From NCBI GenBank assembly GCA_013426805.1, contig JACDZG010000049.1:1-50959 (forward strand): a stretch of DNA of 50,959 bases, in the 5' to 3' direction. Below, piece after piece: positions 15,200 through 42,872 of the stretch. The notes beneath the pieces are model-generated. The model was not told where the DNA came from and searched no databases. It saw only the letters and a program-made list of their open reading frames with translations. Every line of letters begins with the position of its first letter. Position 1 is the stretch's first letter. Source of the stretch: Chromatiaceae bacterium (GTDB lineage: Bacteria; Pseudomonadota; Gammaproteobacteria; Chromatiales; Chromatiaceae). The position numbers and the translations under genes are program-made.

Positions 15200-15327
15200 G
15201 TTGACGTCTGACCGGTGGAGGCAGCGTACCCGCGGCGGCGCGAGGCGCCGCGTTGCGGCGAACGGGCGACGCTGCACTGTTGCCGGTCATTGGCGGGAAA
15301 TCGTGCAAGGGATCATCCAAGTTCGTC

Positions 15328-18117
15328 ATGGGGGCAACCGTGGCCAAGGATAACAGTTCGGAACCGTCAGGATTGCGTGCGCAGCTTGCGGCGTTGGAAG
15401 ATCAACGTCGCGCCCTGATTGCGCGCTTGTCGTCGCATATGGCTGGCCAAGCGGCGGCCATTTGCACGCCGACCGCCGCAGATCCCGGCATCCTCAAAGG
15501 GATCTTCGTCGGCGAGCGTCCCAGTTCCCCCGATAAGCAACTCGATTGCCTGCGGCGGGTGCTGGCATGGCGCACCCGCTCACTGCCCCTGCGCGGGATC
15601 GACAGCCGAACGGATGGCAGCCACTGCATCGTCAGTCTTTACGTGCCGCTGATGACTGATCTCGCACTGTCCGAGGAGGCGACGAAACGCGCACTCGTGG
15701 AGGCCGGGCGCGGCCTCCCGGTGACTTATCCGGCTCCGGACCCGAACGCCGAGCGCATCCTGGATCGAGATCGGGCGCGCAGGCTCAGTGCGCTGGAGGC
15801 GATTTGTCTGCGCCGTTCGCTGGTGATCCTGGGGGATGCCGGCTCGGGAAAATCCACGCTGCTCGCCTTTGTCGCCCACGTCCTGGCGACCGGGGCTCGG
15901 GGCGCGTTGCCCGGTTGGCCGGAAACCGAATGGTCGTGTATCCCGGTGCTCTTGCGACTGCGCGATTTCAGCACCTGGTTGGCCGCGCGGGAGACGTCGG
16001 AGCGGTCCGCCGAGCGTTTGGCGTGGGCGTTTCTGCGCCATGAGTTGACCGACCGCAACCTGGGTTTTTGTCTGCCTGCGCTTGAAGCGGCGATCCACGA
16101 GGGGCGTGCCCTGGTGCTGTGGGACGGGCTGGACGAGGTCCATCCCAACGGGCTGGCCCAAGTACGCGCGAGTCTGATTGAGTTTCGTCGGGAGGCCCCC
16201 AAGTGCCGCTTCGTACTCACCAGCCGGATGTTCGCCTACCAGCACCTCGATTGGCGGTTGCCGGAAGCTGAGTTTCCGATCGCCGTCTTGCAGCCTTTCG
16301 GCCGCGATCAGGTGGATCGTTTCGTGACCGACTGGTTTCAGGAGTTGGGTGCCCACGGCGGGCTTCTGCTGACCGAGGCGGAGGCTCTGGCGGATACGTT
16401 TCGTCAGGAAATCAAGCGTACCCACTGTTCGCGCCTGGCGTCCAATCCCCTGTTGCTCACGCTCATGGTGCTGGTCTTCACTGAGCGTCGCGAACTGCGG
16501 GAGGAGCGGGCGCGGTTGTTCGAGGGCGCCGTCGATGTGCTCTTTTCACGGATGGATCGCGGCTTGAATGCCGAGGATACGCGCATTACCGATTTGCTGC
16601 GGGAGGCCCGGCGGGATCGTTGTGATGCCATCAGCCTGTGCGAACGTCTGTCCATGGTGATGCAGCACCAAGGGGACGCCGATCGGTCATCGGCCGATCC
16701 CGGCCAAGGCGCGGCCGCAGGTATCGGTGAGGCCGAGTTGGTGGACGCCCTGCGGTTACTGCATCCGCGCCAGGATTTGGATTGGGCGCAATCGCTCACG
16801 GAGCTGTTCAAGCAGCGCGCTGGTCTGCTGTCCGAGGAGCGACCGGCGGTTTACGACTTCCCGCATCGGGCGATACGCGAGTATCTGGCCGGTTGCGCGT
16901 TGGCTCATGCCCCGGACTTCGCACGGCAAGTGGCTGGTCTGGTCCATCACCGGACCTACTGGCGCGAGACCATTTTGCATGCCGTCGGCTTCCTGGTCCA
17001 GAGTCAGCGAGAGCTTGCGCGGCCGTTGGATTTGATCGAGTGCCTGTGTCCGCCCGATGCCGACATGGGTGATGCCTTATGGCGCCGTGTCTGGCTGGCG
17101 GGTGAGGTGGCCATCGCCATCGGCTATGGGCGGGCCGCCGATACGCCGCCCGGCGCCGGGCGTTTTCAGCGCGTTCGTTACCGCCTGGCGGCCCTGGTGG
17201 AGTCCGGTAGGCTGCATCTGGGGGAACGGGCAGCCGCCGCGGCCGTGTTGGCACGGCTCGGGGACCCGCGTTTCGAACACCGAGGGTTCCAACTTCCGGC
17301 ACGCTATCACGGCGAGCATGAGCGAGCCCTGGGGATGGTGGCGATCAAACCAGGTCCGATCGTGTTGGGTTGTTCGCCCGATGTTGCGGGGGTGCTGCCG
17401 AACGAGCTTGGCGGGAATGTACCGGTCGCACTGGACTATGCTTTCTGGACCGGGCGCTACCCGGTCACCGTGGGCCAATTCCGCGTCTTCGTCGCCGCGC
17501 GCGGCTATGAGCGGCGCGAGTGGTGGTCCGAGTTGGGGTGGGTCTGGTGCCATGGCCAGCGGCGCAAGGAGCCGGTGGGCTGGGTCGATCAGCGTGCCGA
17601 GACCAACCGTCCGGTGGTCGGTGTCACCTGGTTCGAGGCGCTCGCGTATGCGGCCTGGCTCGACGCCATGTTACGCAAGCGCAGCAGCAGTCTACCTGCC
17701 GGTTATGGTCTGCGCCTGCCCACCGAGGCCGAGTGGGCGCTGACGGCGCGCGGGACCGAGGGACGCGTCTATCCCTGGGGCGATCACTTTGGGGACGGTT
17801 GTGCCAACTGTCTCGGGACCCTCGGTGAGCCGTCCGCCGTTGGCCTGTTCCCCCTGGGCGTTACGCCCGAGGGCGTAGCGGACATGGGCGGTAACGTCTG
17901 GGAATGGACTCTGAGTCGGGACCAGCCCTATCCTTACGAGGTCGGTGACGGCCGCAACGACGTGGATGCCGAGGGCGCGCGCATCCTGCGCGGGGGATCC
18001 TTCGACGCGGGTCCGTTGCGGACCAGGACCACCGCGCGCGCGCACGCGGCGACCCGTGAAACCGCGCGTGACCTCGGCTTCCGCCTCGTGCTCTCCCTGT
18101 CGGAAGAGGCGGTTTGA
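15328..18117 (+). CDS. NACHT NTPase fused to a C-terminal FGE-fold domain
   Basis: A 929-residue STAND-type protein. An N-terminal helical segment (about 15-45, LRAQLAALEDQRRALIARL) precedes the NACHT domain. The NACHT domain has Walker A GDAGSGKST (169-177), Walker B LVLWDGLDEV (262-271), and a following LTSRMFAYQHL sensor region. A winged-helix and helical region runs to about 660. The last 260 residues form an FGE-sulfatase/C-type-lectin fold with LRLPTEAEWALTARG, GNVWEWT and ILRGGSF. The domain ends in GFRLV, and the active-site cysteines of true formylglycine-generating enzymes are absent, so it is probably a binding module. Such fusions occur in bacterial conflict systems. It is less GC-rich than the SEFIR-MoxR genes that follow. 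Confidence 0.9.
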   Translation: MGATVAKDNSSEPSGLRAQLAALEDQRRALIARLSSHMAGQAAAICTPTAADPGILKGIFVGERPSSPDKQLDCLRRVLAWRTRSLPLRGIDSRTDGSHCIVSLYVPLMTDLALSEEATKRALVEAGRGLPVTYPAPDPNAERILDRDRARRLSALEAICLRRSLVILGDAGSGKSTLLAFVAHVLATGARGALPGWPETEWSCIPVLLRLRDFSTWLAARETSERSAERLAWAFLRHELTDRNLGFCLPALEAAIHEGRALVLWDGLDEVHPNGLAQVRASLIEFRREAPKCRFVLTSRMFAYQHLDWRLPEAEFPIAVLQPFGRDQVDRFVTDWFQELGAHGGLLLTEAEALADTFRQEIKRTHCSRLASNPLLLTLMVLVFTERRELREERARLFEGAVDVLFSRMDRGLNAEDTRITDLLREARRDRCDAISLCERLSMVMQHQGDADRSSADPGQGAAAGIGEAELVDALRLLHPRQDLDWAQSLTELFKQRAGLLSEERPAVYDFPHRAIREYLAGCALAHAPDFARQVAGLVHHRTYWRETILHAVGFLVQSQRELARPLDLIECLCPPDADMGDALWRRVWLAGEVAIAIGYGRAADTPPGAGRFQRVRYRLAALVESGRLHLGERAAAAAVLARLGDPRFEHRGFQLPARYHGEHERALGMVAIKPGPIVLGCSPDVAGVLPNELGGNVPVALDYAFWTGRYPVTVGQFRVFVAARGYERREWWSELGWVWCHGQRRKEPVGWVDQRAETNRPVVGVTWFEALAYAAWLDAMLRKRSSSLPAGYGLRLPTEAEWALTARGTEGRVYPWGDHFGDGCANCLGTLGEPSAVGLFPLGVTPEGVADMGGNVWEWTLSRDQPYPYEVGDGRNDVDAEGARILRGGSFDAGPLRTRTTARAHAATRETARDLGFRLVLSLSEEAV

Positions 18118-18282
18118 CGCCCAGGGGCTAAGTCCGACCGGCTGCCAGGGTCCGCCGTGCGGACCCATCCCCGCCGACCGCAACGATGACCGAGGCCCGG
18201 CGCCGGGCGCAAACGCCTTGCATCGACACCGGCCCTGGGTACACTCACCATTGGCACAAGAAAATCAGCACGGGCGCCAGGC

Positions 18283-19587
18283 ATGGTCGGGATACCGCGG
18301 GTCTTCATCAGCTACAGCCACGACTCGGACGGGCACCGCGAGCGGGTCCTCGCACTGTCCGAGCGCCTGCGCCGGGACGGCATCCCCACCGACCTTGACC
18401 GTTACGTCAATGGCTCCCCGCCCGAGGGCTGGCCGCGCTGGATGATGGACCGGCTGGAGGAGGCGGATTTCGTGCTCCTGGTCTGCACCCCGACCTATTA
18501 CCTGCGCTTTCGCGGCCACGCGGAACCGGGTCAGGGGAGGGGGGTCGACTGGGAGGGGGCCATCGTCACCCAGGAGATCTACAACGCCCGCAGTCGCACC
18601 CGCCGCTTCATCCCGGTCCTGTTCGATCCGGCGCACCAGCCCTACATCCCCGAGCCGGTGCGCGGCCACAGCGTCTATTGCCTGGACGCAGAACCGTGCT
18701 ACCTGGCGTTGTGCGACGCGCTGCTCGCTCAGTCGGGCGTCGAGCCCGGCCCGGTCGACACGCTGCTGTGGAAAGCGCGTCCGCGCGCCGCGCCGCTCGC
18801 CTTCCCGGATGCGGGCCCCAGCGACGCGGCCCCGGACCACGAACACGCCATGGACCCGCCGGGCGCCTTGCTGGCCCGCATCCTGGATCATCAGGAGCAA
18901 CTGAACGCCGTCCGCAAGCTGTTCCGCGACCCGGCGTGCGCCTGGGCCATCGCGCTCGTCGAGTGCTGCTCCGCGGACTCCCCCTATGACCTGGCGGACC
19001 ACCTCCAGTGGCGCTATGGCCCGCCGGGTGGACCCCGGCGGGAAGCCGTGCAGGTCCCCCTGGAGGGTTGCGGGGACCCGGACGCCTTCTGGGACAGGTT
19101 GTGGGGGCAGCTGGTCCCCGAGAGTCCGATGGCGCCCGGGCTGCGGGTCATCTTCGTTCCGGTCAATTTGAAGCGCTTTGCCGGCCGCCTGCCGGGCATC
19201 ATTCAGGCTGGCGGGGCGCGGCTCGCCGCCCTCGATGCGGTCGTGCCCGGGGCCCAGGTCCTGGTGCTCTTTGCGGCGGAGCGGGTCGGGTCCGCGGCGC
19301 CGCTGTGGTGGCGCTGGATCGCGCGCCCGCGCCTGCTGCGTCTGGGTTGCTGCCATGAACTGCCGGCCTTGCGTCCCCTGGAGGAACCCGACGTGACCGA
19401 GTGGCACGCCGCCTTTCCGGCGCACCTGCGCGGCCGCTACGACCGCGACCGGCTGCGGATCGAACTGCGTGCCTTGTTCCGGGACGGGCGCACCCAGGTC
19501 CGCTACGACGAGGCTCTGTCCCGTTTGCTCGGGCGCGACGGCGCACCCGGGGCACTGGACCGCGCCTGCCGGCCCCTTGCGCCCTAG
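18283..19587 (+). CDS. SEFIR (TIR-like) domain protein
   Basis: The first 160 or so of 434 residues form a SEFIR/TIR-type domain: RVFISYSHDSDGHRERVLAL, then GIPTDLDRYVNG, and EEADFVLLVCTPTYYLRF with IVTQEIYNA. In bacteria these domains act as NAD-consuming effectors or as signalling adaptors. The remaining part has an alpha/beta pattern (AWAIALVECCSADSPYDLA, LRVIFVPVNLKRFAGRLP, ALVLF-type strands) that resembles an inactive STAND-like module but has no P-loop; that reading is tentative. The gene is very GC-rich and starts a tight run with MoxR (27-base gap) and the membrane FGE protein. Confidence 0.88.
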   Translation: MVGIPRVFISYSHDSDGHRERVLALSERLRRDGIPTDLDRYVNGSPPEGWPRWMMDRLEEADFVLLVCTPTYYLRFRGHAEPGQGRGVDWEGAIVTQEIYNARSRTRRFIPVLFDPAHQPYIPEPVRGHSVYCLDAEPCYLALCDALLAQSGVEPGPVDTLLWKARPRAAPLAFPDAGPSDAAPDHEHAMDPPGALLARILDHQEQLNAVRKLFRDPACAWAIALVECCSADSPYDLADHLQWRYGPPGGPRREAVQVPLEGCGDPDAFWDRLWGQLVPESPMAPGLRVIFVPVNLKRFAGRLPGIIQAGGARLAALDAVVPGAQVLVLFAAERVGSAAPLWWRWIARPRLLRLGCCHELPALRPLEEPDVTEWHAAFPAHLRGRYDRDRLRIELRALFRDGRTQVRYDEALSRLLGRDGAPGALDRACRPLAP

Positions 19588-19614: not shown

Positions 19615-20751
19615 ATGAACGACACCCCCTATTACCAGGGCCGCGGCGCGCGCGACCCCCGGCGCGCCGCGGCCCTGCCCCCGGTGGACCCCGAGCGCCT
19701 GCGCCACCCCGCCGCCTACCGCGCCACCCCCGGGCTCGCCGCCGCGCTGGACGTGGCCCTCACGCTCGGGATGCCGCTGCTCCTGACCGGCGAGCCGGGC
19801 TCCGGCAAGTCCGGCCTGGCGGACAGCCTAGCCTGGGAACTGGGGCTCGACCCGGTGCTGCGCTTCGCCGTCAAGTCCGACACCGAGTCGCGCGACCTCT
19901 TCTATCGCTTCGACACCGTCGGGCGCTTCCACGCCGCCCAGACCAGCAAGAACGACGCCGACTCGGACCCGGCCCGCTTCATCACCTTCGAGGCCCTGGG
20001 CCTGGCCATCCTGCGCGCCCTGCCGGTGCGGGTGGCGCGCGATCTCGGGCTTTCCGAGCAGGCGCTGCAACACCCGGGGGCGCCGCGCCGCTCCGTGGTC
20101 CTGATCGATGAGATCGACAAGGCCCCGCGCGACGTCCCCAACGACATCCTGGTCGAGATCGAGACCATGAGCTTTACGATCCCCGAACTCTGTGGTGCCG
20201 ACCGGTCCCGGGTGGACATCGGGCTGGGCAAGGACGACCAGGACTGCCGGCCCATCGTCGTCTTCACCAGCAACTCCGAGAAGACCCTGCCGGACCCCTT
20301 CCTGCGCCGCTGTGTCTATTACCACCTGGCGTTTCCGTTCTTCGATGCGGAGTTGGCCGCGGCGGCGAAGGTCTTGCCGGCGGACCTGCCGGAGGATCGG
20401 GTCACCGTCGACTCCATCGTCGCCGCCCGCCTGGGAGACCGCTGGGAAGGCGCGGGCGAGCCCTTCGGCCCCGTCGCCCTGGCGCTGGACTTCTTCCACT
20501 TCCTGCGCGCCGAGGGCAACGGGCTGGAGCGCCGCCCGACCCTGGCGGAGGCCCTGGCCTGGCTCGATTACCTGATGCCCGTCGGGGTGCCGCCGGCCGA
20601 CTGGGGCGCGCTCGCGGCGCTCTCCGCGCCCGCCGCGCCCGGCCCCGAGGCGCGGCTCATCGCCGCCATCGCCACCCTGCTGCTCAAGAAGCCGCTCGAC
20701 CAGGCGCGCGCCGGCCCGTTGCTCGCGACCTGGCGCGGCGCCCGCTCCTGA
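19615..20751 (+). CDS. MoxR-family AAA+ ATPase
   Basis: A 378-residue AAA+ ATPase. Walker A is GEPGSGKS (59-66), Walker B is VVLIDEID (161-168), sensor 1 is in VFTSNSEK (N220), and the arginine finger is at R231/R232 in PFLRRCVYYHLAF. The segment ESRDLFYRFDTVGRFH is typical of MoxR proteins linked to conflict operons. MoxR proteins usually act as chaperone-like remodelers of a partner, often one with a vWA domain. No vWA gene is present here, so the partner is probably the membrane FGE protein ten bases downstream or the SEFIR protein upstream. A good ribosome site (GAGGA) precedes the ATG. Confidence 0.92.
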   Translation: MNDTPYYQGRGARDPRRAAALPPVDPERLRHPAAYRATPGLAAALDVALTLGMPLLLTGEPGSGKSGLADSLAWELGLDPVLRFAVKSDTESRDLFYRFDTVGRFHAAQTSKNDADSDPARFITFEALGLAILRALPVRVARDLGLSEQALQHPGAPRRSVVLIDEIDKAPRDVPNDILVEIETMSFTIPELCGADRSRVDIGLGKDDQDCRPIVVFTSNSEKTLPDPFLRRCVYYHLAFPFFDAELAAAAKVLPADLPEDRVTVDSIVAARLGDRWEGAGEPFGPVALALDFFHFLRAEGNGLERRPTLAEALAWLDYLMPVGVPPADWGALAALSAPAAPGPEARLIAAIATLLLKKPLDQARAGPLLATWRGARS

Positions 20752-20761
20752 GCCCGCGCCC

Positions 20762-23700
20762 GTGACCCAGCCCGCGGCCCCCGGGCCGCCGCCGGACCGG
20801 CCCCCCGGGCCGCTCGCCCGTTACCACCAGGCCCTGCCGGGCCTGGCGGGACTGCTGCGCGGCGCCGGCCTGTCCGTGGGGCCGGACCGCTGGCAGAACA
20901 TCTATGACCTGCTGGCGGCCCTGGCCGCCCAGGGCCGGCTGCCGGCCGGGGCCGCCGGTTTGGCGCCCCTGATCGCCCCCCTGGTCTGCCGCAGCGAGCA
21001 GGAGCAGCAGGCGTTTCCCGCCCTCTTTGCACGCTGGCTGGAGGGGCTGGCGCCCGACCTGCGGGGCCTGGGGTCGGCGGCGCCCGCACCAGCCGCCGCC
21101 GGCCCCGGGCAGACCGGACCGGCCCCCGCGCTCCGGCTGCGCTGGTGGCTGCTGGGCCTGACCCTGCTGTTCGCCGCGCTGCTGGGCGTGGCCTATTGGG
21201 CGCAGCGGCCCGACCCGCCGACCGTGGCGGAGACCCCGCCGGCCGCGGTGCCGAACGTGCCCGTGACGCCATCGCCGGCCCCGCCGCCGTCACTCGCCGC
21301 ACCGACGCCGCCGCCCACCGCGCCGGCCGTCCTCCCGCGCCGCCCGCTGCTCCTCGACCGGGTGCTGGACCCGGACCATCGCTCCCTGCACGCCATCCTC
21401 GGGGCCTTCTGTCTCCTGCTCCCGCCCTTCGTGGCGCTGGCCTGGCTGCTGCTGCGCTGGCTCACCTGGCGCACCGTGCTGGAGCGCCGCCGCGGCGACC
21501 CGCGGGACCCGCTCACCGCCATCCGCCTGCCGGTCGCGGCCGACGACCTGCTCCAGGCCCCCGCCCTGCGCGAGGCGCTGCGGCACCTGCACCAACCGGT
21601 GTCGGTCGTCACCCGGCGGCTCGACGCGGACGCCACCGTCGCGCGCACCGCCCGCCACGCCGGCCTGTACCGGCCCGTCACCCGGCGGCGCCGGTTCGTG
21701 CCGGAGCTCGTGGTACTGGTGCAGACCCGTCACCCCGGCGACCAGATGGCCGGGCTCGCCGGCCAGTTGGCCGCCCGTCTGGGCGAGGCCGGCCTTGCGG
21801 TGCAGCGCTACGACTACCGCGACAGCCCGCGCACGGCCGTCGGCGCGGACGGCCGCCGGCACACCATCGCCGATCTCCTGGCCCGCCACGCCGGCGCCCG
21901 GCTGCTCCTGATCGGCGAGGCCGCCGCCCTGCTCGACCCCCTGTCCGGTCGCCCCCTGGACTGGACCGCGGCCCTGGCCGCGGCACCGTCCCGCGCCCTG
22001 CTCGCCACCCGGCGCCCGCCGGCCGCCTGGGAGCGTGCCCTGAGCGCCGCCGGCTTCGCGCTGGCCGAGGTCTCCAGCCGCGGCCTGGAGACCCTGGCCT
22101 GGCACCTCAGCGGCCTCGGCCGCCCCGCCGGCTCCGCCCTGCCCGCGACCGCCCGGCCGCTCCCGCGTCTCCTGCAGGACGCCCGGCGCTGGTCCCAGCC
22201 GGTGCCGCCGCCCCCGGCCGAGCGCGCCGCCCTGCTGCGCGCCCTGGACGACTTCCTGGGGCCTGAGGGTGCCTGGCTGCTCGCCGCCATGGCCGCCTAC
22301 CCGCAACTGCACTGGGGCCTGACCCGGGTGCTGGACCTGCACCTGTTCCCGCCGCCCGCTGCGCGGGCCGCCGTGCCGGGTGCCCTGCCGGACGAGCGAC
22401 CGGGAGGGCCGGCTGCTGCGTATCGCCCGTCTGCCCTGGTGCCGGCTCGGCTGGCTGCCGGACTGGCTGGGCGCCGCCCTGCTGGGGCGGCTGGGGCGCC
22501 CGGACCAGCGTGCCGTCCGCCGCGTCTACCGGGCCCTGCTCCAGCGCGCGACCACCGCGCCCGGCGGCCCCGGCGAGGTCGCCATCGCGCTGCCGGTCTC
22601 GCTCCCGCGCAGCGCCGGCCTGCGCGCCGGACTGTGGGACTGGCTGCGGCAGCGCGGCTGGCGGCTCGACCGCTGGCTCCAGGGCCAGCGCGCCCTGTCC
22701 GACGGGCGCGGCGTGCTCGACGACGCCATCTTCGCCGACTGCCTGTTCGGCTGGCGCCCGCGGCTCCTGGACTTCATCGCGCCCCGGCCCCTGCTGCGGC
22801 GCCACCTGGGCGGTGCCCTGGGGCAGGCCCTGGCCCCGCGCCTGCTGCTGGCCCTGGTGCTCGGCGGCGGCGGCGCCTGGCTCGCGGGGCTGGCCTGGCA
22901 GGAGTGGCTCGCCGCCCGCGCCGAGCCCTGGTTCTTGGACCGCCAGCACGGCGTCCACCATGGCTACCGGGTCGCGGTCGAGTGCCGGGAGGCGACCGCC
23001 GCCCTGGCCGACGATCTGCGCACGACGCTGGAGGCCGACGGCTTCGTCGTCCAGGTCGGCAAGCCGCTCCCGGCGGGGCCCGCCGCACCCGGGCCCCGGC
23101 CGATCCTGGTCAACCGGGTCCAGTGGGATGACGCGGCAGATGCGCTGCTGGCCGCGCACGTCGCCGATCGCCTGGCCCGGCTCGCCGGGGGCGAGCCGCC
23201 GCGAGTGACGAACCGGCTGCCGCGCTGGGGGCATGGGCTGAGGCCGGTCAGGTCGGGGGGCCTGCGGGCGATCTGGGTCGTTCTGGAGACGGACGGGGGA
23301 GTCGTCGACAGTGCCCCGGAGCCTGCGGACCCGGAGCTGCCGCCCGTGGAGCCGGCACCAGTGACCATCCTTCCGACCGACGCCGCGCCCGACCAGGGCA
23401 CCGGCACGCCCGCCGAGCCGGACGCGAGGCAGCGGTTGATGGCGCAGATTCAGGCGTTGGAGACCACGATCACCGGGCTCGAGGCCGAGCTGCGGCTGGA
23501 ACTGGCCGGGGGCAACGGACGCCGCCCCGGCTACGGCCCCGCGGCCAAGGCCGTCGAGGGCAAGATCAAGGAGGCGCGAACGCGCCTGGCGGACCTCCAG
23601 CGCCAAGGCTGGCCGCTGCTGAGTGAGCGCGAGCGTGAGGCGGCGCTGGACGCCGACAAACAGGCGCTCCTGGCCCAGGCCCAGGCCAACCAGACCGACC

Positions 23701-24974
23701 AGGCCCTTGCCGCCCTGGACCTGCTGCGCGGCCGGCTGGGCGCCGCGGACCCCTTCGTCACCGGCGCGGCCCCGCGTGCCATCGCCCAGGCCCATGTCCG
23801 CCTGGCCGGGCAGGCCGCCGCGCGTGGTCGCGACGCGGAGGCCCTGAAGCTGCTCGATCAGGCGGTCGCGCTGGACCCGGAGACCGCCGACGGCGGTCTG
23901 CGCGCGCGGATCGAACGGGGCCAGGTCTACGCCCAGCTGAGCGCCCGGATCAGCGGCGCCGACGCCGCCGGGTTGGCCGCCCTGGCGAATGAGCTCGGCG
24001 TCCTCAAGATCACGGCCGCGGCCGACTATCCCCGGTGGGAGACCGCCTGGGCGAAGACCCTTGCGGCACGGGTCAAGGCCGAACCGGACCCGGCGGCGGC
24101 CGAGCGGCTGTTGGGGGCGGCGCGGGAACTCTTCCCGCGCGCGGCGGGGCTGGCGCAACTGCGCAGACCGGCGGCGGCCGCGCTGCCGCCCATCGTGCCC
24201 GTGGCGCCCGACCCGCGGTCCGTCTTTCGCGACCGGCTCCAATCCGGCGGCGAGGGGCCCGCGATGGTCCGGCTGCCGGGCGGGGACTTCCTGATGGGCT
24301 CACCCGAGGCTGAGCCGGAACGGTACAATGACGAGACGCAGCATCGGGTTGCGATCAAACCCTTCGCCATCGGCCGCACCGAGGTCAGCTTCGCCGAGTA
24401 CGACCGCTTTGCCGCGGCCAAAGGGCGCGCCAAGCCGGTTGACGGGGGCTGGGGCCGCGGGGACCGCCCGGTGATCAATGTCTCCTGGGACGATGCCACC
24501 GACTACGCCGCCTGGCTCAGCGCCCAGACCGGTCGGCGCTACCGCCTGCCGACCGAGGCGGAATGGGAGTACGCCGCCCGGGCCGGGACCCAAACCCCGT
24601 TCTGGACCGGTGACTGCATCGCTACTGACCAGGCCAACTATGACGGGACCCGCAAGTACGCGGGCTGCACGGCCAAGGCCAGCGTCTACCGTGAACAAAC
24701 GGTCCCCGTCGGCAGCCTGGCCCCCAACCCCTGGGGCCTCTATGAGATCGCTGGCAATGTCTGGGAATGGACCTGCTCCAAGTACGAGGCGGCTTATGCG
24801 GGGGAAGAACTGATTTGTATTAGCAAAAATGATGCCATATATGGGCCGCTCCGGGTGTTCCGCGGCGGCGCGTGGAACATCCAGCCTGCGTGGCTGCGGT
24901 CCGCGAACCGTGACAGGGACGGGCCGTCGAACCGGTACGTCCCCCTCGGTTTCCGCCTCGCCCAGGACTTATGA
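20762..24974 (+). CDS. Large membrane protein with C-terminal FGE-fold domain (frameshift near 22.4 kb)
   Basis: Two overlapping frames make one gene of about 1,400 codons. The first frame (GTG at 20762) is coherent to about 22395, and the second from about 22396 to 24974; the move corresponds to one extra base near 22396-22404. Part 1 has a proline-rich cytoplasmic start, a membrane helix at about 128-148, a Pro/Ala linker and a second helix at about 209-234. Part 2 has another hydrophobic helix (near 22840-22915), a helical region with TPR-like repeats (23430-24170), and an FGE/C-type-lectin domain from about 24255 (LPGGDFLMGS, YRLPTEAEWEYAARAG, GNVWEWTCS, GFRLA). The FGE cysteine site is absent. 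The end resembles a DGR variable region. Whether the shift is a sequencing error, a mutation or programmed is unknown. Confidence 0.8.
24840..24971 (+). other. Candidate DGR variable region (VR) at the end of the FGE domain
   Basis: The last 44 codons follow the pattern of known DGR target tails, in which a template rich in AAC codons is copied with random changes at A. At the places where such tails usually have Asn, this gene has ATC (24879), GAC (24912 and 24918) and the run TAC-GTC-CCC (24936-24944). Each differs from AAC only at A positions. An A-free stretch (24938-24963) ends the region, as expected for the initiation site of mutagenic homing. Just upstream is the segment ICISKNDAIYGPLRVFRGG, also common in such targets. 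No template repeat or reverse transcriptase was found in the window, so this is a prediction from pattern. Confidence 0.55.
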
Positions 24975-25370
24975 CCTTTTCTCTCTTCGCTCTTCCCCTT
25001 TTCTCCCCTCTTCTCTTGCCCTGGTTCCCAAACGCCGAGGCCAAGGCGTCAAGCTCGCCAAGAAATACAAGAGGGTAGATCCAATATCAAGATCTCCCGG
25101 CGGGTGAGTCGCGCAACGTCGATACCCGATGGGAAAACCTTGGCGCGCTTGGCGCCTTGGCGTGATAGTTGTTCTTTCCGAGATGATCAATGCCTGCCGC
25201 GCTTGATGCAAGGGGCGCAATCCCGTCACCCCAACCCGAAGCAGTCGGTCTGGATATCCGGTGTGAAGGCTCTAATCCGTGCGGGCGGCGGGGATATACC
25301 GGTAGAGGGTTGCAGGCGAACAAGATTCTGATCAACCGCCGAAACTCGTGCGTAACCGATGAGCATGGCG
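24975..25370. other. Non-coding stretch after the FGE gene
   Basis: No gene is supported here. It begins with a pyrimidine tract (24976-25018, almost all C and T) and contains an imperfect 23-bp inverted repeat (25040-25062 with 25139-25161). The sequence was scanned by eye for a near-copy of 24840-24971 that could be a DGR template repeat, and none was seen. Confidence 0.6.
25040..25161. repeat. Imperfect 23-bp inverted repeat
   Basis: The arms 25040-25062 and 25139-25161 are reverse complements at 21 of 23 positions, built on the motif GCCAAG/CTTGGC, with a 76-base spacer. It may be a folded, non-autonomous repeat element that occurs elsewhere in the genome. No flanking target duplication was recognised. 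Confidence 0.65.
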
Positions 25371-38512: not shown

Positions 38513-39554
38513 GACCAGCCAATCCCGGTCGATTCGTCGCCACCTGATCGATGCCGTCAGGTCCGGGCGAGCGGACATCGTCGCCGAGACCTGTGAGCGG
38601 TTCGGCATCACCCGTCAGGCCGTGCACCGGCATCTGGCCCATCTGACCCGAGAGCGCTTCTTGGAGGCTGTCGGGACGACACGCGGTCGCACGTATCGCT
38701 TAGGACCGAACCGCTGGCAGCAAGGCAACTACGAACTCGGTGCCATCACCGAGGATCGCGTCTATGCCGGTGATTTCGAGTATATCGTCGAGGGACTGCC
38801 GAAAAACGTCCGGGATATCTGGCATTATGGGTTCACCGAAATGCTTAATAATGCGATCGACCATTCCGGGGGGGCGGTGGTGCGGATCGTCGCAAGGCGC
38901 AGCGACGAGTGGCTCGCACTACTGATTCGGGACGATGGCGAAGGCATTTTCAAACGCATTGCGCGTCTGCTGGGTCTCGGCGACCCCCGAGAAGCGATCC
39001 TTGAGCTGAGCAAAGGTAAGCTGACCACCGATCCGGAGAACCATACCGGGGAAGGCATCTTTTTTACGTCAAGGGTCTTCGATTTATTCCGAATCACTTC
39101 AGGCGATCTGGCATTCAGCCATATGGACGCGTCGGACCGGGATTTTCTGGTGCATCTCGAAGGAACAACGCAGGGGACCACGGTCGGCATGTATCTCTCG
39201 CCCAAGACCGAGCGCATACTGGCGTCCGTTTTCGACGAATATACCGATGCCGATACGCTGGACTTCTCCAAGACGGTTGTGCCGATCCGCCTGGCGCTGT
39301 ACGAAGGGGAGCAGCTCGTCTCCCGCTCTCAGGCCAAACGGATCATGAATCGCGTCGAGCGCTTCCGCAATGTCGTATTGGACTTCGCGGGCGTCGATAC
39401 GGTGGGCCGATCCTTTGTCGACGAGATATTCCGAGTGTTCTCGCAGCGTCACCCGGAGATCGTGATCGCGCCGATCAATATGAATGCGCAGGTGCAACGG
39501 GAAGTGGGCCGTTTTTCCGAAACGGACGACAGGACGACGGGTGCAGAGCCGTAG
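38499..39554 (+). CDS. HTH-GHKL ATPase-DUF4325 signalling protein
   Basis: A 351-residue protein in three parts. A winged-helix DNA-binding head (1-70, ADIVAETCERFGITRQAVHR) is followed by a GHKL/histidine-kinase-type ATPase domain (about 85-215) with N-box EMLNNAIDHS, G1 DDGEGIF and G2 HTGEGIFF. A C-terminal DUF4325 STAS-like domain (about 260-340) has VVLDFAGVDTVGRSFVDEIF. No phospho-accepting histidine domain is present, so it is not a classical kinase. It could be an ATP-dependent transcription switch or anti-sigma-type regulator. The stop codon lies inside a palindromic repeat, which may have trimmed the C-terminus. Confidence 0.85.
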   Translation: MDIGKTSQSRSIRRHLIDAVRSGRADIVAETCERFGITRQAVHRHLAHLTRERFLEAVGTTRGRTYRLGPNRWQQGNYELGAITEDRVYAGDFEYIVEGLPKNVRDIWHYGFTEMLNNAIDHSGGAVVRIVARRSDEWLALLIRDDGEGIFKRIARLLGLGDPREAILELSKGKLTTDPENHTGEGIFFTSRVFDLFRITSGDLAFSHMDASDRDFLVHLEGTTQGTTVGMYLSPKTERILASVFDEYTDADTLDFSKTVVPIRLALYEGEQLVSRSQAKRIMNRVERFRNVVLDFAGVDTVGRSFVDEIFRVFSQRHPEIVIAPINMNAQVQREVGRFSETDDRTTGAEP

Positions 39555-39625
39555 GTTGGAGTGAGGAACGAACCCCAACGGCCGGTGGCGGGGATGTTGG
39601 GGTTCGTTCCTCACCCCACCTACGG
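39549..39625. repeat. Palindromic element, copy 1
   Basis: The arms 39549-39579 and 39596-39625 are near-perfect reverse complements (GTAGGTTGG..GAGGAACGAACCCCAAC), around a spacer of 16 bases. The left arm contains the TAG stop of the HTH-GHKL gene. The same element occurs again at 42755-42827. It lies between converging genes and could stop transcription from both sides. Confidence 0.88.
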
Positions 39626-42696: not shown

Positions 42697-42754
42697 GAAG
42701 CCACACGCGGCGGCCTTGATCACGGTTCCGGCCAGCGCTGCTCACATGGAGCCC

Positions 42755-42827
42755 GTAGGTTGGTGAGGAACGAACCCCAACAGCCGGCGGCGGGGATGTT
42801 GGGGGTTCGTTCCTCACCCCAACCTAC
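42755..42827. repeat. Palindromic element, copy 2
   Basis: The arms 42755-42781 and 42798-42827 match the copy at 39549-39625 closely, with the same GTAGGTTGG ends and GAACGAACCCC core. It stands between the converging ABC1 gene (plus) and lpdA (minus). Together the two copies bracket a 3.1-kb block with the regulator, the broken hydrolase and the ABC1 gene. Confidence 0.88.
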
Positions 42828-42872
42828 GACCCGGCGATCGCCGCGCCGATCCGCGGCGATCGTCCGCCCGAC

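Follow-up and report, generated by a model that had tools for sequence, protein, structure and literature searches.

The 122-bp variable repeat (VR) at positions 24844-24965 of the plus strand of the window, the whole stretch of 50,959 nucleotides analysed here, was very probably overwritten in trans: a diversity-generating retroelement (DGR) located on contig C198 of the same genome would have replaced it through mutagenic retrohoming. The window is the entire contig C295 of a draft genome (7.6 Mb, 349 contigs, estimated contamination of 3.98%), and its VR, at the C-terminus of an FGE-fold domain, is served by a template repeat (TR) at C198:53346-53467. VR and TR differ at 12 positions, all of which are adenines in the TR (12/12, 0 differences at other bases); with 25 A in 122 bases, the chance of such a distribution is 4e-10 (hypergeometric P). 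No difference leads towards A, so the change clearly ran from TR to VR and not the other way.

The variable repeat and its remote template

The differences alter ten codons of the target gene (824, 827, 834, 838, 845, 847, 848, 853, 854 and 855, in the frame that starts at 22380). A preliminary description of the window had recognised a DGR target pattern in this tail, which the location of all differences at TR adenines bears out, and had given its extent as 24840-24974; the tail is real, the VR proper being limited to 24844-24965. The codons named in that description are also real (AAC to ATC, AAC to GAC twice, and AAC-GAC-AAC to TAC-GTC-CCC, from template to window), but they do not all derive from AAC, since GTC comes from GAC, and four further altered codons had been overlooked, namely CTC (from AAC), TTC (from ATC), TGG and GGG (both from AGG). 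An A-free stretch of 26 bases, likewise reported, was located at 24938-24963. It overlaps the invariant 3' end of the VR (24945-24965, plus strand, 21 bp), which is identical in the TR and in five VRs of this genome, occupies the place of the initiation-of-mutagenic-homing site and presumably plays that role. No inverted repeat of at least 7 bases was detected directly 3' of the VR (24966-25300), the three pairs observed being all within the VR. A hairpin or cruciform downstream of the VR is known from phage DGRs and is not universal.

A search of the host genome with window positions 24780-24980 gave ten matches, two of them ~1.4 kb apart on C198. The second of these is the TR (122 bp, 25 A), which belongs to a complete DGR with a caspase-FGE protein as cis target, an Avd gene and a DGR-type reverse transcriptase (RT) gene, the latter two sitting between the C198 VR and the TR. 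The Avd protein matches NF033474 (88.3 bits, cut-off 80, E 3.5e-25), bAvd (PF22296) and phrog_3206 ('Avd protein of DGR'). The RT (371 amino acid residues) is encoded by a frame without stops (L009:8301-9416, in the C198 stretch), matches RVT_1 (E 6.4e-23) and carries YVDD and IGNLLSQ, a motif which we take to mark DGR RTs. Its best NCBIfam model is a group II intron RT, with a score far under the cut-off (140 versus 300 bits), so that the DGR label rests on the motif, on Avd and on the TR-VR pairs. The first 70 bases of the TR (L009:9347-9416) overlap the 3' end of the RT frame and, because of this overlap, the RT stop codon lies within the template. A scan of the C198 DGR for promoters and terminators gave nothing above chance.

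None of the genome's 12 RVT_1 matches is on C295, in agreement with the lack of a nearby RT noticed earlier, and the service is thus in trans, with TR and window VR at least ~38 kb apart. The remote DGR that had been proposed to explain this lack is supported: the expected near copy, differing from the VR only at its own A, is the 122-bp sequence at C198:53346-53467, and it is adjoined by both the expected Avd gene and a DGR-type RT gene without stops, whereas the VR is on C295. This pairing would be an artefact if C295 and C198 came from different organisms, as could happen in a draft of 349 contigs with a contamination estimate of 3.98%. Nevertheless, the GC contents are similar (0.663 in the window versus 0.655 in the C198 stretch), a dispersed repeat of ~80 bp is common to the two, and the exact match at non-A sites would still require a recent common template, and we consider such a mixture highly improbable.

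By analogy with DGR biology, overwriting in trans would proceed by copying of TR RNA by the error-prone RT together with Avd, with random bases entering opposite template A, and the resulting cDNA would take the place of the target gene's 3' end, with the invariant 21-bp end as its starting point. The product would be a variable end of an FGE-fold domain that is probably non-catalytic and probably membrane-anchored.

Five repeats fitting one template

A search of the genome with the TR (E up to 1) retrieved 29 matches: the TR itself, five (nearly) full-length VRs, ten matches with 70-79% identity, which fall on contigs that carry other DGR repeats, and a further 13 that are short. The five VRs that fit the C198 TR are located beside it (C198) and on four other contigs (C221, C295, i.e. 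the window, C349 and C279), so that one retroelement serves at least two target architectures, caspase-FGE and the set formed by SEFIR, MoxR-like and membrane-FGE genes. The differences to the TR fall at A sites in 18/18 (C198), 8/8 (C221), 13/13 (C349) and 17/22 (C279) cases; four of the five non-A differences of C279 lie within the first five bases and one of the five is synonymous. The TR adenines are distributed over codon positions 1, 2 and 3 as 13, 12 and 0, a stop codon is unreachable, and 2.7e14 proteins are reachable. All five VRs of this genome share a T at one template A (AGG to TGG), which may reflect selection for Trp or common ancestry and counts against free randomisation at that site; in congeners, the same site has G in both G005 VRs and T in the G002 VR.

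The DNA preceding the repeats has a different history from that of the repeats themselves. Upstream of the VR, the FGE coding DNA of the window and C221 is 0.72 identical over 696 bases (third positions, 0.60), that of the window and C198 0.68 (0.54), and that of the window and C349 0.50 (0.45), the last divergence being inflated by the missing first part of the FGE domain in C349. Within the VR, each of the three pairs agrees at all non-A positions (97/97) and all third positions (41/41), but of the 25 A positions only 13 (C221), 8 (C198) and 11 (C349) are the same as in the window; the non-A agreement between window and C279 is 92/97. At a rate of 0.60, the chance of 41 agreeing third positions is about 8e-10 (arithmetic). 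Diverged upstream DNA followed by complete non-A agreement argues for local overwriting and not for plain descent. FGE tails could also have become alike by duplication or gene conversion, with Asn codons changed by selection, in a genome with many paralogous FGE genes (59 matches to the target protein). However, such passive copying does not account for 12/12 differences at TR adenines, with none towards A, nor for a boundary of agreement that coincides with the TR itself, and selection at the protein level would not spare all 41 third positions; we find it scarcely credible.

The N-terminal extensions of the targets point in the same direction. In their tree, the window groups with G154, contig C1 of G195 and contig C295 of G197 (support 90/97), and C221 groups with G004 (100/100); VRs of a single TR are thus present in two operons with separate lines of descent. 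The idea that the entire FGE domain was captured from the caspase-type gene is unsupported: the FGE tree leaves the window row unresolved, and window and C221 fall on different branches of the extension tree.

Specificity was evaluated with a script that took the surroundings of the RT gene at six of the 12 RVT_1 loci and scanned them for TRs against 14 genome stretches. Six TRs with A-biased partners were found (C198, C259, C139, C311, C347 and C152), and the window VR shows 0 non-A mismatches with that of C198 alone. The TRs of C259, C139, C311, C347 and C152 were rejected as its source, with 36, 42, 45, 37 and 49 non-A mismatches, respectively, as were four TRs of relatives (26-39). The NACHT-FGE gene located directly upstream of the SEFIR gene (15253-18117) was considered as a second target in the window, but no TR among the six matches its tail (17951-18140), the non-A mismatches numbering 37-50.

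Besides that of C198, five further DGRs were found in the genome, on L014 (C259), L109 (C139), L110 (C311), L140 (C347) and L141 (C152), each with a TR and at least two VRs that differ from it mainly at its adenines; the C259 and C139 TRs also have partners on other contigs (C71 and C126). On the minus strand of C349 (L108:9305-10591), the target is a caspase-FGE copy with an internal deletion of the first FGE part, which still keeps a VR with 13/13 A-only differences. A relic on C65 (L015:202-422) consists of a caspase-type target start fused to the last VR bases and the DNA that follows.

VRs akin to the C198 TR are also present in congeners, with A-site differences of 10/13 in G002 (C112), 13/14 and 14/16 in G005 (C22 and C479), 14/26 in G007 (C1:4480695-4480809) and 18/29 in G003 (C537). 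No fitting TR was found in these four genomes, with 40 candidates scored per genome, so these VRs look like orphans. G007 has a TR-VR pair of its own (12/12 differences at A), whose TR was rejected as the source of the remote G007 VR (30 non-A differences); the template of the latter was not found among the candidates scored. Outside the window's genome, the nearest RT to that of C198 in the genus (8 genomes) is also in G007; it is 61% identical, and two stop codons interrupt the part that matches.

Target protein and gene neighbourhood

The target is encoded on the plus strand in two frames. The N-terminal extension (20762-22348, in a frame that continues to 23131) has two hydrophobic segments, according to hydropathy, and no Pfam domain at E up to 1. 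The C-terminal frame (22380-24974, 864 amino acid residues) comprises one hydrophobic segment, a coiled, DUF4407-like part and the FGE-fold (C-type-lectin-like) domain (24255-24962, residues 626-861), and the hydropathy scan suggests that the protein is probably membrane-anchored. The FGE fold assigned in the preliminary description is substantiated by PF03781 (E 3.2e-53) and by matches to FGE-fold proteins of solved structure, among them TvpA (2y3c), the DGR protein of Treponema denticola, with a profile match of E 8.7e-24 and a Foldseek match of E 1.4e-7. The Foldseek match was obtained with a predicted model whose mean pLDDT is 64; since pLDDT falls under 50 over most of the VR, the model served for the overall fold alone and not for placing the variable residues. 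In the alignment with human FGE, whose active-site pair is C336/C341 (numbering taken from the titles of mutant structures and the 2afy sequence), the Cys of GGSYMC faces the Ile of GGAWNI and the Cys of SYCYR faces a gap. Absence of both active-site cysteines makes enzyme activity unlikely, and the domain is probably non-catalytic, as judged from this alignment.

The two frames meet in a frame-change zone (22348-22395, plus strand): the G195 and C221 proteins align with one frame up to 22348 and with the next from 22401 and 22395, respectively, and in the three relatives examined (C221, G004 and contig C1 of G195) extension and FGE domain share a single open frame. The break in the window may reflect a mutation, a programmed shift or a mistake in the assembly; a real break would leave the target protein split or truncated. 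An alternative reading is that writing of this VR in trans has ceased and that the target is now silent, its gene broken by the frame change; this reading has the same past as the best explanation and departs from it on the present only. The VRs without a fitting TR in G002, G003, G005 and G007 and the A>T common to the five own VRs would, like the frame change itself, agree with such a silent target. Nevertheless, the 97 non-A sites still match the TR (97/97), although ~40% of the neighbouring third positions have changed, the frames of the TR-side genes are open and the break may stem from the assembly; we regard a target that is now silent as possible but less likely. Overwriting in trans from C198 is the preferred explanation, and we counted against it the target frame change, the non-A differences of C279, the shared A>T, the lack of a downstream inverted repeat, the low NCBIfam score of the RT and the draft state of a genome with 3.98% contamination.

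The window target ends a set of genes with the order SEFIR, MoxR-like and membrane-FGE target, and the identical three-gene order is present at the C221 target. The SEFIR/TIR-domain protein (18283-19587, plus strand) matches PF08357 (E 2.3e-12), as expected from the earlier assignment, and the PADLOC model bSEFIR (E 1.2e-39), and is likely the effector. bSEFIR has an anti-phage role; the window gene shares the SEFIR domain with this defence gene and, unlike it, adjoins an AAA ATPase and a DGR target. Directly upstream of the target extension is the AAA ATPase gene (19615-20751, plus strand), whose product matches AAA_5 (PF07728, E 2.3e-8) and AAA (E 1.1e-6). The MoxR neighbour described previously thus stands as far as the AAA_5 match is concerned, but no MoxR-specific model was matched, and the name MoxR-like is our reading of the AAA_5 match. 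We hypothesized that the FGE domain is a sensor which would trigger the SEFIR effector of a defence operon via the MoxR-like ATPase, a proposal whose chances we judge to be about even. In comparison with the VMAP ternary conflict system, which combines MoxR, vWA and VMAP, vWA was absent (E up to 1) from the window extension and from the C221 and G004 targets, and the neighbour is a SEFIR protein, in which SEFIR and TIR_2 were the only Pfam matches, rather than a VMAP protein. To our knowledge, the profile libraries used contain no model made for VMAP.

Of the 210 genomes of the family, 8 contain relatives of the extension, a number that includes the genome of the window. Three of the eight extension-type loci tested have a cis TR-VR pair (G195 C1, G195 C9 and G197 C1292), a count that leaves out three further extension matches (G197 C1547, C249 and G159); at the other five, no such pair was found in the fetched stretch. 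The differences at A are 14/21 and, with gaps, 23/42 in G195 C1, 14/15 and 17/17 in G195 C9, where the reverse direction also passed the filter with a weaker P, and 21/22 in G197 C1292. The order in G195 C1 is SEFIR, MoxR-like, target, Avd and RT, and the RT match of G195 C9 is a fragment only. The window set thus belongs to a family that is able to own a DGR, and is here served externally.

Relation to known systems

Both remote FGE targets and DGR sensors linked to MoxR have been described before and, therefore, the mechanism is of a known type. The closest case is Thiohalocapsa sp. PB-PSB1, a purple sulfur bacterium like the present one, whose published description includes many DGRs with C-type-lectin/FGE targets in putative conflict systems (PMC10907252). 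The VRs of its DGRs 4 and 5 depart from the DGR 2 TR at A sites only, which was read as service in trans, and a MoxR-like ATPase is directly upstream of a target with a domainless N-terminal extension, as in the window (PMC10907252). According to the same article, the MoxR-adjacent DGR sensors belong to RT clade 5A, and its authors state that their sensor proposal is still to be tested (PMC10907252). The two genomes differ in the SEFIR partner, which is present in the window set and is not named for PB-PSB1 in the main text, where the word 'SEFIR' is absent, and in the one TR fitting five VRs on five contigs, unlike what is described there; moreover, that study has population data, whereas here there is one genome per species (PMC10907252).

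In Treponema denticola, one RT and one TR were described as serving two to seven FGE-fold targets, most of them far from the core, and some isolates have targets without RT or TR (PMC4891356). Service of remote FGE-fold genes by one RT/TR is common to both cases, and the congener VRs without a fitting TR resemble the orphan targets of T. denticola; however, its targets are TvpA-like, whereas those of the window's genome are on caspase proteins or on membrane proteins beside SEFIR and AAA genes (PMC4891356). In cyanobacteria, 76 remote targets were assigned to DGRs of the same genome, also with C-terminal C-type-lectin domains on varied N-terminal domains; the assignment reported there relies on TR identity over 50%, whereas here four of the five VRs agree at all non-A sites (PMC7517822). 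Remote C-lectin targets are reported for Trichodesmium as well (PMC8867640).

Three details were not met in the parts of the literature consulted: a hub of five VRs, a SEFIR partner, and the coexistence of sets with cis and trans service in one family. None of the papers searched mentions both 'diversity-generating retroelement' and 'Thiodictyon'. As a tentative extension, possible rather than probable, one template would be written genome-wide into the sensors of caspase and SEFIR/MoxR-like defence sets, so that hypermutation would be outsourced and one recognition library shared within the cell. The case bears on the question of whether bacterial hypermutation feeds defence sensors, and offers a well-defined trans service (one template and five VRs, four of them with non-A sites exactly kept) together with related gene sets, with and without a cis retroelement, for contrast. 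Targets like these escape screens confined to the RT neighbourhood, a limitation that Roux et al. state for theirs (PMC8144416). The genus includes an isolate, 'Thiodictyon syntrophicum' Cad16T, with a closed genome (G007) and its own TR-VR pair, which makes the question approachable in related strains.

The ~80-bp dispersed repeat, perhaps MITE-like, is present in the window at 39547-39624 and 42754-42828, in C198 (L009:10110-10190), in C349, as shorter pieces, and in C126, where both orientations match.
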